From Flavobacteria bacterium MS024-3C (GTDB lineage: Bacteria; Bacteroidota; Bacteroidia; Flavobacteriales; Flavobacteriaceae), in the NCBI GenBank assembly GCA_000173115.1, contig ABVW01000002.1, positions 1-64,000 of the forward strand: a stretch of DNA of 64,000 nt. Reading direction: 5' to 3'. The notes below the pieces were generated by a model. The model was not told the origin of the DNA. It saw only the letters and a program-made list of their open reading frames with translations, and searched no databases. The position numbers and the translations under genes were made by a program. Position 1 is the first letter of the stretch. Every line of letters starts with the position of its first letter. Of the stretch, positions 43,165 to 59,825 are shown piece after piece.

Positions 43165-43177
43165 TGCTTTATTTATT

Positions 43178-43255
43178 AAGAGGAAGGATTTGACTGATTG
43201 CAACCTCTTTACAAAGCTTCATAAGGCTTGTGTAAAAAAAAGTGCTAAAGCAGTT
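43178..43255 (+). promoter_or_regulatory. SAM-II-type riboswitch with a long loop, upstream of metK
   Basis: P1 pairs AAGAGG (43178-43183) with CCTCTT (43204-43209) and encloses GATTTGACTGATTGCAA, the characteristic SAM-II core. The second half AGTGCTAAAGCAGTT supplies the conserved GCTAAA and a pseudoknot arm: GACTG of the P1 loop can pair with CAGTT. Between them an inserted hairpin (TTTACA with TGTAAA, AAGC with GCTT) makes the long loop known from a Bacteroidetes variant of SAM-II. A hairpin TCACTAC/GTAGTGA follows at about 43255-43276. No T-run follows, so control is probably at translation. SAM made by MetK would switch its own synthesis off. Confidence 0.8.
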
Positions 43256-43332
43256 CACTACGTTTTTCAATGTAGTGACAAACCCCCGCTAAAAAGTCAA
43301 ATTCGCACTCGTCAACTTTAAAAATTGATGCT

Positions 43333-44659: not shown

Positions 44660-44806
44660 ATAGTTATCAAGAAAGGTGGAGGGATTAGACCCTGTGAAGC
44701 CTTAGCAACCCTTTGTATTGTTCAAAGAAGGTGCTACATTCTATCTCATTTGAGAATAGATAACCGGAATGCTTACCGTCTGTAAGCGAACTTTCTTATA
44801 TAACTT
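44660..44806 (+). promoter_or_regulatory. SAM-I (S-box) riboswitch upstream of metY
   Basis: The core is unmistakable: TTATCAAGAAAGGTGGAGGG, then GACCCTGTGAAGCCTTAGCAACC and AAGGTGCTA..ATTC. P1 pairs AGTTATCAAGAAAG (44662-44675) with CTTTCTTATATAACT (44791-44805), with two small bulges. Behind it lie CTAGTGGCGCCGCTAG (44823-44838), a near-perfect palindrome, and T-rich sequence to about 44870, a possible expression platform. It is expected to lower transcription of the methionine operon when SAM is plentiful. Confidence 0.93.
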
Positions 44807-55543: not shown

Positions 55544-55713
55544 ACGTATTACTTTTATTTAATTAAGTCCGGCTTCTATTATTCTCAGTTATAAAAGTGA
55601 TTTGTGTTTAAATCCTCAATAAAAATTGTTTAAATAAGGTAATTCTAAAAAAATCATTTGAATTCAGTATATTTTAAATATAATAATTACATTAGCTTTT
55701 TGTAAAATAAATT

Positions 55714-55788
55714 ATGACACTTAGTACGAATTTCTGGAGCCGTTTTTACTTCTACTTCTATTTTAATAGAAGTACGGGACTTTTCTAG
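55714..55788 (+). CDS. Aromatic leader peptide of the pheA-tyrA operon attenuator
   Basis: A 24-codon frame, ATG 55714 to TAG 55786-55788, in the gap between metF and pheA. It begins MTLSTNFWSR, continues with seven aromatic residues in a row, FYFYFYF (codons 11-17), and ends NRSTGLF. In all 10 of 24 residues are aromatic (six Phe, three Tyr, one Trp), far more than chance, and the genes that follow are precisely those for Phe and Tyr synthesis. Its codons overlap the RNA hairpins of the attenuator. It is probably translated only to sense charged tRNA-Phe and tRNA-Tyr. It is too short for usual gene finders. Confidence 0.88.
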   Translation: MTLSTNFWSRFYFYFYFNRSTGLF

Positions 55789-55843
55789 GATATTGTGAAC
55801 TATATACCTTATTAAGAGTCCCGCTATTGCGGGATTTTTTTTT
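55753..55843 (+). promoter_or_regulatory. Ribosome-mediated transcription attenuator of the aromatic operon
   Basis: Three competing stems are visible. Stem 1:2 pairs TACTTCTATT (55753-55762, inside the Phe/Tyr codons) with AATAGAAGTA (55765-55774). Antiterminator 2:3 pairs CGGGACTTTT (55775-55784) with AAGAGTCCCG (55814-55823), ten pairs with one G-U. Terminator 3:4 pairs TCCCGC (55819-55824) with GCGGGA (55829-55834), loop TATT, followed by nine T bases (55835-55843). A ribosome stalled on the aromatic codons would block stem 1:2 and leave region 2 free for the antiterminator. One reaching the stop would cover region 2 and let the terminator form. Confidence 0.87.
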
Positions 55844-55850
55844 GATTAAA

Positions 55851-56687
55851 ATGAAAGAAAAAATGAAAATAGCCATTCAGGGCATAAAGGGATCTAACCA
55901 CCATCAGGTGGCGATTGATTGCTATGGAGCTAACCAAGAGATGCTTCCTTGTATGTCCTTTCCTGCTTTGGTTCAAGCGCTTATTGAAGGAAGGGCAGAC
56001 AAGGGTATCATGGCTATTGAGAATTCCATTGCGGGTTCAATTATTCCAAATTACGCTTTGGTGTATGACCATCATTTAAATATCATTGGAGAATACTACT
56101 TAAATATTCACCACCACCTTATGGCGCTTGAGGGTCAAGAATTAACAGATATTAAAGCGGTACATTCCCATCCAATGGCTCTATTGCAGTGCCATGAGTT
56201 TTTTAAAAAGCATCCCCACATTCAATTGGTAGAAGATGTAGATACGGCAGAAACTGCTCAGCGTATTCAATCTGGTCAGCTAAAAGGAATAGCCGCAATA
56301 GCACCTAAAGTAGCTGCTGGGTTATATGGCCTAGAAGTTTTGGCTTCGGACATACAGACCATTAAAAACAACGCTACCCGTTTTATTATTGTAAAAACGA
56401 CTTCTAAGGAATTACCTCAGGAGCAAATAAATAAGGCCTCGCTTCGTTTTGTGTTAGATCACAAAAGGGGGAGCTTGGCGGCAGTACTCAATGTGATGAG
56501 TGACTGCCATTTGAATTTAACAAAAATCCAATCTTTACCTGTGATAGATGTTCCATGGAAGTATGCTTTTTTTGTAGACGTCACTTTTGACCATTATGAA
56601 GACTATACAAAAGCGAGGGCTATTTTAGAAATAATGGCTAATGAGTTTAGGGTATTGGGAGAATATAATAATGCGAGAGAATTATGA
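55851..56687 (+). CDS. pheA: Prephenate dehydratase
   Basis: Converts prephenate to phenylpyruvate for phenylalanine. The 278-residue protein shows IAIQGIKGSNHHQVAID, IMAIENSIAGSIIPNYAL, HSHPMALLQCHEFF and the catalytic NNATRFIIV, followed by a C-terminal ACT domain (about 200-275). The ACT motifs GALV and ESRP of Phe-inhibited enzymes appear as GSLA and QSLP, so feedback control may differ. A second ATG (55863, MKIAIQGIKGS) is an equally good start. It begins eight bases after the attenuator T-run and overlaps the next gene by four bases. Confidence 0.94.
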   Translation: MKEKMKIAIQGIKGSNHHQVAIDCYGANQEMLPCMSFPALVQALIEGRADKGIMAIENSIAGSIIPNYALVYDHHLNIIGEYYLNIHHHLMALEGQELTDIKAVHSHPMALLQCHEFFKKHPHIQLVEDVDTAETAQRIQSGQLKGIAAIAPKVAAGLYGLEVLASDIQTIKNNATRFIIVKTTSKELPQEQINKASLRFVLDHKRGSLAAVLNVMSDCHLNLTKIQSLPVIDVPWKYAFFVDVTFDHYEDYTKARAILEIMANEFRVLGEYNNAREL

Positions 56688-57832
56688 AAACAGCTATACG
56701 TTTAAATACGGTACAGGAATACTACTTCTCTAGAAAGCTAAGAGAGGTACGTGGCCTAATGGCAGCGGGAAAACCTATTATTAATATGGGTATTGGTAGT
56801 CCAGACTTGGCACCAGATCCAACGGTTACTGAGGCTTTAATAGCTGCCACGGCCGCGGAGAATGCACACCAGTATCAATCGTATCAGGGACTGCCTGAGC
56901 TCAGAGAAGCCATGGCTTCTTTCTATAAAAAACACTTTGGTGTTTCTTTGGATGCTGCCACTGAGATTCTGCCATTGATGGGTTCAAAAGAAGGGATCAT
57001 GCATATTAGTATGGCCTTTTTGAATCCAGGAGATGGGGTACTTATTCCAGACCCAGGCTATCCTACGTATCAGTCGGTTTCTGATTTGGTTGGCGCTAAG
57101 GTCATTCCTTACAGGCTAAGAAAAGAAACTAATTGGTTGCCAGATATTGTGGCTTTAGAGCAATTAGATCTCACTCAAGTAAAACTCATGTGGCTGTCTT
57201 ATCCTCATATGCCAACAGGAGCAGTGGCTTCTGAAGCAGCGCTTACTGAATTGGTGGCATTTGCTAAAAAACATGATATTCTCTTAGTCAATGACAACCC
57301 TTATGGTTTTATATTAAACAATGCTCCTCAGAGTATCTTGTCTATTCCTGGAGCTAAAGGACATGTGTTGGAGTTAAATTCCTTAAGCAAGACCTTTAAT
57401 ATGGCCGGCTGGCGCGTAGGAATGGTTTTAGGAGATTCGGAAATTATTAATGCCGTGCTTAAAGTGAAGAGTAATATGGATTCAGGAATGTTTTATCCTG
57501 TTCAAAAGGGGGCCATAGCAGCTCTTGAAGTGGCTGACGACTGGTACACAGCATTAAACAAAATATATGAAGTGCGAAGGACATTCACTTATGAATTGGC
57601 AGACGCTTTGGGCTGTACATACGATCTAAATGCGGTGGGCTTGTTTGTGTGGGCAGAATTGCCAGAGGACGTAACAGATGCAGAAGCTTTTATAGAGGCG
57701 TTATTACACGAAAAAGATTTATTTATTACACCAGGGACCATTTTTGGAGCAGGGGGCGCGGGCTATGTTCGTTTCTCCCTCTGTGTAGACGCATCGTTAA
57801 TTCAAGAGGCTATTAAACGCGTAAAAAATTAG
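56684..57832 (+). CDS. Class I PLP aminotransferase (probable aromatic aminotransferase)
   Basis: A 382-residue fold-type I aminotransferase with INMGIGSPDLAPDP, GVLIPDPGYPTYQSV, VNDNPYGFILNN and the PLP lysine in ELNSLSKTFNMAGWRVG. It stands between pheA and tyrA, overlapping the pheA stop by ATGA, so it probably transaminates phenylpyruvate and 4-hydroxyphenylpyruvate. Specificity is inferred from context. Its start is fixed by the overlap. Confidence 0.9.
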   Translation: MKTAIRLNTVQEYYFSRKLREVRGLMAAGKPIINMGIGSPDLAPDPTVTEALIAATAAENAHQYQSYQGLPELREAMASFYKKHFGVSLDAATEILPLMGSKEGIMHISMAFLNPGDGVLIPDPGYPTYQSVSDLVGAKVIPYRLRKETNWLPDIVALEQLDLTQVKLMWLSYPHMPTGAVASEAALTELVAFAKKHDILLVNDNPYGFILNNAPQSILSIPGAKGHVLELNSLSKTFNMAGWRVGMVLGDSEIINAVLKVKSNMDSGMFYPVQKGAIAALEVADDWYTALNKIYEVRRTFTYELADALGCTYDLNAVGLFVWAELPEDVTDAEAFIEALLHEKDLFITPGTIFGAGGAGYVRFSLCVDASLIQEAIKRVKN

Positions 57833-57834
57833 TT

Positions 57835-58698
57835 ATGAAAGTAGTTTGTGTCATAGGAGTTGGTTTGATTGGGGGTTCTTTTTCTAAAGACATTCAAGCG
57901 CATTATCCAGAGGTGAAACGTATTGGGATAGACACAAATGACCACTACTTAGCGGAGGCTTTAAAGTTGGGTGTCATAGATGAAATAGGGCATTTAGAAG
58001 ACGTAGCACTGGCAGATTTGGTGTTTATAGCCATTCCCGTAGATGCTACTTTAAAAATCTTGCCACAGGTATTGGATTTAGTGGCAGACCATACGGTCGT
58101 AATAGATGCAGGTTCTACCAAAGCAAGCTTGTGTGAGGCGGTTCAAAACCATCCTAAACGGAGGCATTATTTGTCTGCACATCCCATTGCTGGGACGGAA
58201 TTTTCAGGGCCATCGGCCGCGATAGCGGGCCTATTTAAGGGAAAGACACAGATCATTTGTGAAGTGGAACAAACGGCTTTTAAATTACAGGAAAAGGCCC
58301 TCGAAGTATTTCATGCCTTGGGGATGCGAATTCGCTATATGAATGCAGCGGCTCACGATGTACACATTGCATATGTGTCTCATCTGTCACATATTAGCGC
58401 CTTTATGTTGGGAAAGACAGTCATGGAGAAAGAAGAAAATGAAAGGGATATCTTTGATATGGCTGGGAGTGGGTTTGAAAGCACGGTGCGTTTGGCGAAG
58501 AGTTCCCCTGCTATGTGGGCACCTATTTTTAAAGATAATAAAACCGCTGTGGTTGCAGCGCTCTCTGAGTATATAGATAATTTACAACGCTTTAAATCTC
58601 TGGTAGAAGCCAATGATTTTGAAGGCGTGTATGCGCAAATGGATCAGACCAACAGGATTAAGGATATTTTAAATGGGCTTACCCATCAAAACAAATAG
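57835..58698 (+). CDS. tyrA: Prephenate dehydrogenase
   Basis: Oxidises and decarboxylates prephenate to 4-hydroxyphenylpyruvate for tyrosine. The 287-residue protein has an NAD-binding start VCVIGVGLIGGSFSKDI, VFIAIPVDATLKILPQVL, DAGSTKASLCEAV and the substrate motif HPIAGTEFSGPSAA. It begins two bases after the aminotransferase stop. Confidence 0.95.
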   Translation: MKVVCVIGVGLIGGSFSKDIQAHYPEVKRIGIDTNDHYLAEALKLGVIDEIGHLEDVALADLVFIAIPVDATLKILPQVLDLVADHTVVIDAGSTKASLCEAVQNHPKRRHYLSAHPIAGTEFSGPSAAIAGLFKGKTQIICEVEQTAFKLQEKALEVFHALGMRIRYMNAAAHDVHIAYVSHLSHISAFMLGKTVMEKEENERDIFDMAGSGFESTVRLAKSSPAMWAPIFKDNKTAVVAALSEYIDNLQRFKSLVEANDFEGVYAQMDQTNRIKDILNGLTHQNK

Positions 58699-58742: not shown

Positions 58743-59825
58743 ATGGAGAATTCAAAAGAAATGAGAAATTGGTTAGACGCCATGAACTTAGACCATCCGC
58801 TCGTAATTGCGGGTCCCTGCAGCGCTGAGACGGAAGAGCAGGTATTAAAGATTGCACACGAATTAAAAGACACAGATGTAAATTATTTTAGAGCAGGTAT
58901 TTGGAAACCTCGTACCAAACCAGGAATGTTTGAAGGAGTAGGAGCACTAGGGTTAAAATGGCTTCAAAAAGTAAAAAAAGAAACTGGTCTAAAAACAGCT
59001 ACTGAAGTGGCTAATAGAGCCCATGTTGAATTGGCTTTGGAGCACGACGTAGATCTTTTATGGATTGGCGCTCGTTCTACAGTAAGTCCTTTTATTATTC
59101 AAGAAATTGCAGACGCCTTAGCGGGTACCGACAAGATTGTATTGGTGAAAAACCCAGTAAATCCAGATTTAGCCCTTTGGTTAGGAGCAGTGGAGCGTTT
59201 GGCCAATGCCAATATTAAGAATTTAGGGGTTATTCACAGGGGTTTTTCTACCTATGAGAAAACCAAATATAGAAATATTCCGGAATGGCAAATTGCGATT
59301 GAATTGCAGCAGAAATTTCCAGATTTGCCTATTATTAACGATCCTTCTCACATTACTGGGAAGCGAGACATGATCTTTGACGTGTCTCAAACAGCTTTGG
59401 ACTTAAATTTTGACGGTCTTATGATCGAAACGCATTTTGATCCAGACAATGCTTGGAGTGACGCAGCACAGCAAGTTACCCCAACGGCATTGGTTCAGAT
59501 CATGAAAGACCTCAAGATTAGAAAAGAGTCTTCTGCTGAAACAGATTACAACGTGGAGTTAAATACTTTGAGGGCTCAAATAGATGTCATTGACAACCAG
59601 CTTATTGAGATACTTTCAAAAAGAATGAAAGTAGCAGATGCTATTGGAGGGATTAAGAAATCTCAAAATGTGGCGGTCTTACAGAGCAACCGCTGGAACG
59701 AGATTTTAGGAAAGATGATTTTAGAGGGAGAGGCCAAAGGACTCAGTGAAGAGTTTGTTTTGAAAATGTTTAAAGCCATTCACCAAGAGTCAATTAACCA
59801 CCAAGAGAAAATCTTAAAAGCTTAA
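58743..59825 (+). CDS. DAHP synthase-chorismate mutase fusion
   Basis: The entry enzyme of the shikimate pathway fused to the enzyme at the Phe/Tyr branch. Residues 1-265 are the type I-beta DAHP synthase (PLVIAGPCSAETEEQV, RAGIWKPRTKPGMFEGVG, LLWIGARSTVSPF, PIINDPSHITGKRDM). Residues about 275-360 are an AroQ-type chorismate mutase (LRAQIDVIDNQLIEILSKRM, IKKSQNVAVLQSNRW). The fusion is common in Bacteroidetes. As last gene of the attenuated operon, it puts pathway entry under the same Phe/Tyr signal as pheA and tyrA. Confidence 0.95.
   Translation: MENSKEMRNWLDAMNLDHPLVIAGPCSAETEEQVLKIAHELKDTDVNYFRAGIWKPRTKPGMFEGVGALGLKWLQKVKKETGLKTATEVANRAHVELALEHDVDLLWIGARSTVSPFIIQEIADALAGTDKIVLVKNPVNPDLALWLGAVERLANANIKNLGVIHRGFSTYEKTKYRNIPEWQIAIELQQKFPDLPIINDPSHITGKRDMIFDVSQTALDLNFDGLMIETHFDPDNAWSDAAQQVTPTALVQIMKDLKIRKESSAETDYNVELNTLRAQIDVIDNQLIEILSKRMKVADAIGGIKKSQNVAVLQSNRWNEILGKMILEGEAKGLSEEFVLKMFKAIHQESINHQEKILKA

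Follow-up and report, generated by a model that had tools for sequence, protein, structure and literature searches.

Is transcription of the phenylalanine and tyrosine operon of Flavobacteria bacterium MS024-3C controlled by the short stretch of DNA in front of its first gene, pheA, and if so, what does this stretch sense? A first-pass annotation of the 64,000-nucleotide stretch analysed here (contig ABVW01000002.1, hereafter the window) had proposed a leader-peptide attenuator at this place. Our analysis supports that proposal by the conservation of the element, its alternative pairings, its terminator and compensatory changes in them, and we consider it highly probable (about 0.93) that the element is a ribosome-mediated transcription attenuator of the Phe/Tyr operon. 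All features are listed in Table 1.

Table 1. Features of the pheA leader region and of the operon behind it (window coordinates)
Feature	Position	Strand	Basis or remark
Bacteroidota-type -7 promoter element TACATTAG, predicted	55688..55695	+	compare TAnnTTTG
Leader peptide ORF, predicted translated	55714..55788	+	24 codons + TAG, MTLSTNFWSRFYFYFYFNRSTGLF; kept in relatives
Control codons FYFYFYF	55744..55764	+	read from leader ORF sequence
Regions 1:2 hairpin TACTTCTAT/ATAGAAGTA	55753..55774	+	55753-55761 with 55766-55774; overlaps control codons
Region 2 antiterminator strand CGGGACTTTT	55775..55784	+	pairs with 55814-55823
Region 3 AAGAGTCCCG	55814..55823	+	common to antiterminator and terminator
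Regions 3:4 intrinsic terminator hairpin + nine T	55814..55843	+	folding, alignment
pheA, prephenate dehydratase, C-terminal ACT-like region	55851..56687	+	Pfam PDT 1.3e-57; ACT match under curated cut-off
Class I/II aminotransferase (AT)	56684..57832	+	Pfam PF00155
tyrA, prephenate dehydrogenase	57835..58698	+	Pfam PDH_N, PDH_C
DAHP synthase fused to chorismate mutase (CM)	58743..59825	+	Pfam DAHP_synth_1, CM_2

Leader peptide, alternative stems and predicted start signals

On re-reading, the 24-codon ORF with its FYFYFYF run and ten aromatic codons proved exact to the base, aromatic residues making up 10/24 of the peptide MTLSTNFWSRFYFYFYFNRSTGLF and the stop codon TAG occupying 55786-55788. 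Among 28,470 random open ORFs of 24 codons, matched in base composition, at least ten aromatics were present in 164 and an aromatic run of seven in 3. The aromatic-rich peptide is by itself unusual, not decisive; the decisive property is its conservation.

The three mutually exclusive stems (1:2, antiterminator, and terminator with nine T) likewise lie where the first-pass annotation had placed them. The core of the terminator (55819-55834) extends to 55814-55839, the nine T follow at 55835-55843, and pheA begins 8 bases past the terminator. Established ribosome footprints put the leading edge some 15 nt beyond the first base in the P site; with the last aromatic codon in the A site, a ribosome would therefore reach about 9 nt past that codon. 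In all 28 leaders analysed the segment that pairs best with region 3 starts 8-13 nt past the last aromatic codon, and in 24 of them it ends within the leader ORF. At this distance region 2 would be left free by a stall anywhere in the run and covered by a ribosome that has reached the stop codon. Region 1 and the control codons overlap, and the edge of the stalled ribosome would lie just short of region 2.

Upstream of the ORF we noticed TACATTAG, which resembles the Bacteroidota -7 box TAnnTTTG (PMC7366714). At least five of six matches to this box were present within 50 nt upstream of the leader ATG in 95 of 100 distinct leaders, against about 46 of 100 expected from letter shuffles, and the usual distance from the TACNTTNG-like element to the leader start is 18 nt, the spacing seen here too. 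We infer promoter activity of TACATTAG, and the leader RNA is predicted to start shortly after it, a few bases before the leader ORF; such proximity would keep the 5' end short and let a ribosome load promptly. No Shine-Dalgarno site was seen at the leader ORF. An A at -3, a Kozak-like initiation determinant in F. johnsoniae (PMC6847099), occurs in 83/106 leaders, which is consistent with the predicted translation of the leader.

Conservation and covariation in Flavobacteriaceae

PheA was used as the anchor in 60 related genomes, and 30 loci were examined. In 28 of these there is, 60-215 nt upstream of pheA, an ORF rich in aromatic codons with a GC hairpin and T run behind it; a 29th (L020) has the leader and terminator displaced about 650 nt upstream. 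At this last locus, upstream of 1501, they occupy about 650-530 nt from pheA, and repeat-like DNA is inserted between. The sole relative of the 30 lacking the leader (L025) does possess pheA, and its genome gave no match for hisG, trpE or ilvD either. A second set, of named genomes, comprised 80 loci, 79 of them with enough upstream DNA. The same rule found leader and terminator at 78 of the 79, and the remaining one, of Flavobacterium branchiophilum (L083), has its leader displaced upstream, with a GTG start; a short ORF with clustered codons for the operon's own products is accordingly present in 79/79. Applied as a control to 2963 other stretches of these loci, the rule found none. Genera with the leader include Maribacter, Arenibacter, Zobellia, Flagellimonas, Tenacibaculum, Polaribacter, Cellulophaga and Flavobacterium, the last with many loci (L072-L110). 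One contig in this group (L109) is labelled Rhizobium sp. Q54 (MAG) and carries a Flavobacterium-like pheA operon with its leader; it is probably mis-binned.

The first-pass annotation had made its proposal depend on whether relatives preserve the aromatic ORF and the alternative pairings. They keep both, as well as the terminator, with compensatory changes. Across 22 distinct leaders, region 3 pairs more stably with region 2 of the same leader than with region 2 of other species (-11.4 vs -8.4 +/- 0.5 kcal/mol after permutation; the own-partner fit is matched by 0 of 20,000 permutations), and it likewise fits its own region 4 better than those of other leaders, in permutations which, like the shuffles below, take no account of relatedness among leaders. 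The core changes in step across the three regions (GGGAC/GTCCC/GGGA, GAGAC/GTCTC/GAGAC, AAGGAC/GTCCT/AGGAC). In an alignment of 49 sequences the covariation of the 2:3 helix amounts to 0.245 vs 0.194 +/- 0.011, above all 500 shuffles, with 9/10 pairs changed on both sides, while two of five pair-count measures for this helix are unremarkable (reached by 39/500 and 168/500 shuffles). For the 1:2 plus 3:4 helices the value is 0.333 vs 0.238 +/- 0.008, again above all shuffles, and the terminator helix is 90% paired across the 49 sequences, with changes on both sides. Compared with shuffles, the 2:3 pairing of single leaders is modest (p 0.003-0.09; 5/28 below 0.01). This per-sequence test is too weak alone, and the permutation between species was used instead; the case for the 2:3 pairing therefore rests on the whole set, which points to an antiterminator that uses the 5' arm of the terminator and is mutually exclusive with it, this arm covarying with both of its partners.

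In the window metH and metF are located upstream of the element, metF directly so and on the same strand, and an ordinary metF terminator accompanied by a chance or unrelated small peptide could be imagined. Across loci, however, only 13/74 have metF in the roughly 4.5 kb upstream, the nearest long upstream ORF is oppositely oriented in 41/74, and the element stays with pheA; moreover, the antiterminator covaries, so that we find this explanation hardly credible. The element as a metF terminator is ruled out by turnover of the upstream genes, and the metF-pheA gap, earlier taken as the usual setting of the element, has no special link to it. The methionine genes of the window have regulatory elements upstream of them: SAM-II and SAM (S-box) riboswitches at 43174-43258 and 44661-44766, 1.4 kb apart.

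A short ORF preceding a first gene might also boost translation of pheA by letting ribosomes re-initiate there, an effect proposed for short leader genes, which have been reported in Bacteroidetes (PMC4833913). Their distances in that phylum peak at 11-14 nt (PMC4833913), whereas 62 nt separate the leader stop from the pheA start here, often far more elsewhere, and a terminator stands between the two; we give re-initiation almost no weight.

Proposed mechanism and the amino acids probably sensed

The gene order pheA-AT-tyrA-aroG/CM was found in 79/80 loci, the remaining one being cut by a contig end, and leaders always stand before this same four-gene Phe+Tyr operon. In the attenuator as we propose it, transcription would begin a few bases before the leader ORF, where a ribosome would initiate without a Shine-Dalgarno site. 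When charged tRNA-Phe or tRNA-Tyr is scarce, this ribosome would stall in FYFYFYF and cover region 1; region 2, left free, would pair with region 3, no terminator would form, and pheA-AT-tyrA-DAHP synthase/CM would be transcribed. With both charged tRNAs ample, the ribosome would reach the stop codon and cover region 2, so that 3:4 forms and transcription ends at 55843. With no ribosome loaded, 1:2 and 3:4 would form and transcription would also end.

The mixed run had been taken to suggest one sensor for both products. Its universality is in keeping with this: Phe and Tyr codons both occur among the final seven codons of the run in 91/91 distinct leaders, always before a Phe+Tyr operon, and from these two facts a single sensor follows naturally. 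Shared sensing by one leader fits the data, which do not amount to proof. The same attenuator may effectively respond to one amino acid, most likely Phe, with Tyr codons tolerated as suiting the region 1 pairing. Phe codons outnumber Tyr twofold across leaders (median 6 vs 3), E. coli pheL carries Phe codons only, and region 1 has to pair with region 2, which constrains the control codons. Against this stand the Tyr codons in the control run of every distinct leader, the constant presence of tyrA in the operon, and the codon differences among leaders, which are mostly aromatic-for-aromatic swaps or synonymous. We regard a one-amino-acid sensor as unlikely, though deserving attention.

The leader RNA is strongly folded (-36.9 vs -23.2 kcal/mol for dinucleotide shuffles, 4.0 sd lower, reached by 0/200) and its terminator is strong, properties which would also suit another kind of regulated terminator, one with an incidental ORF that responds to a different signal as a T-box or riboswitch or through an RNA-binding protein; SAM-type riboswitches are, besides, present in the same window. 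However, no T-box or riboswitch reaches its Rfam gathering score at 55600-55900, nor does any other Rfam family at the element, and at gathering and relaxed E-value thresholds there were chance-level matches only, Leu_leader (24.6 bits) and Phe_leader (16.7 bits), both far below cut-off. Upstream of region 2 nothing is conserved but the aromatic ORF, which brings its own start context. In addition, HHHH leaders precede hisG (20/20) and WWW leaders precede trpE (21/21), and these parallel cases indicate that the coded residue tracks the product of the operon. A sensor of another kind is in our estimation very improbable.

Leaders of other operons and other families

Returning to the leader-peptide attenuator, we examined other amino-acid operons of Flavobacteriaceae. 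At hisG (L189-L208) an HHH or HHHH leader with a terminator is present in all 20 loci, e.g. MITKFIHTHHHFTSYAQAR (L204), and the 2:3 pairing is present as well, in regions so nearly invariant that covariation is uninformative. At trpE (L209-L229; own genome L225) a terminator was detected in most of the 21 loci with the WWW leader, its 5' arm being the nearly invariant GGCTTGTC, and the same pairing analysis gave no clear 2:3 antiterminator at these loci. An Ile/Val-rich leader with a terminator precedes ilvD (L240-L256) in roughly half of the genomes, e.g. MKLRVVIISVIVIIIIPW in L253, and in none of the checked members of the window's genus. Upstream of thrA (L292-L310) there are Thr-rich short ORFs ending TPLG or TPWG, and a conserved ACCCCTTTGGGGT hairpin with a TCCGTC motif downstream; these regions mostly have no intrinsic terminator, and the four loci tested gave no Rfam match.

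A covariance model of the pheA element was run on a 296-genome sample of the phylum. Among the genomes listed the element was found in every one of Flavobacteriaceae, and on this basis all 30 members of the family in the sample appear to match. Weak matches in other families are real pheA leaders (L132, L139, L141). The pheA upstream regions were also read in 40 genomes of other families, where aromatic leaders were present in 5/5 of f17, 4/4 of f18, 5/5 of f19, 3/6 of f22 and 2/2 of f23; one f18 leader (L155) showed no terminator by simple scan. In this reading no aromatic leader was found in f5, nor in genomes with the distant PheA type. Four genomes outside class Bacteroidia (L173-L176; one each in f33, f42, f30 and f48) have a Bacteroidia-type PheA and an aromatic leader, which suggests that operon and attenuator were transferred together.

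The conservation of the leader throughout the family and beyond makes attenuation of the E. coli type, in all probability, the norm in a phylum from which it has scarcely been described. We lean, by a small margin, towards a wider reading: that the operon, pathway entry included, opens as an OR-gate when either Phe or Tyr is scarce; that this device is ancestral and Bacteroidota-wide; and that it is one of the leader-peptide attenuators (Phe/Tyr, His, Trp, partly Ile/Val) forming the default control of amino-acid operons, with tight coupling. Were this true, default attenuation in a phylum without Shine-Dalgarno initiation would mean that ribosome and polymerase must couple tightly there.

Relation to known attenuators

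Little was found in the literature on attenuators of Bacteroidetes, some of which Vitreschak 2004 and Lopatovskaya 2010 may have predicted. The earlier statement that attenuation is little described in Bacteroidetes is somewhat overstated: a transcriptome of Flavobacterium psychrophilum from 2021 (PMC9723704) gave hints that amino-acid operons are controlled by leader-peptide attenuation. It also reported that pheA and hisG are preceded by structured 5' elements, kept in other Flavobacteriaceae genera and lacking an Rfam hit. The F. psychrophilum pheA element agrees with ours in gene, family, conservation across genera and absence from Rfam, and, matched by this description, it is very likely the same; the main text presents neither its sequence nor a peptide, alternative pairing or covariation. 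To this extent, novelty is limited, the pheA 5' element and the clues for attenuation having been published. New are the anatomy to the base, the covariation and geometry, the presence of both Phe and Tyr codons, the occurrence in several families and the parallel His, Trp and (partly) Ile/Val leaders.

According to a 2013 survey of attenuator families in Rfam, amino-acid attenuators may have arisen in gamma-proteobacteria and been transferred only very few times (PMC3766115). We find a covarying Phe/Tyr attenuator in nearly all Flavobacteriaceae examined and in several other Bacteroidota families, beside His and Trp leaders, and such breadth shows that this picture reflects missing models. 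The His_leader (RF00514) and Trp_leader (RF00513) of Proteobacteria follow the same principle as the Flavobacteriaceae HHHH/hisG and WWW/trpE leaders; unlike them, the latter gave no Rfam match in the two loci tested, and the trp leaders lack the clear antiterminator.

The closest known system is enterobacterial pheL-pheA (Rfam RF01859, Phe_leader), which shares the residue-rich leader peptide, the alternative antiterminator and terminator, and the position before pheA; both pairings of E. coli pheL were recovered under our analysis. The two have no sequence similarity: with RF01859 the element scores 16.7 bits against a gathering score of 55, while E. coli pheL, as a positive control, scores 132.3 bits. 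Region 2 ends 13 nt past the stop codon in E. coli pheL and usually within the ORF here, and the control codons are those of Phe only there, and of Phe and Tyr here. Leader-peptide attenuation requires an early-loading ribosome that keeps pace with the polymerase. The element described here differs from pheL-pheA also in its operon (pheA, AT, tyrA, DAHP synthase/CM) and in initiation without Shine-Dalgarno sites, and it would provide a natural, ready-made reporter of how transcription and translation are coupled in bacteria which initiate in this way.
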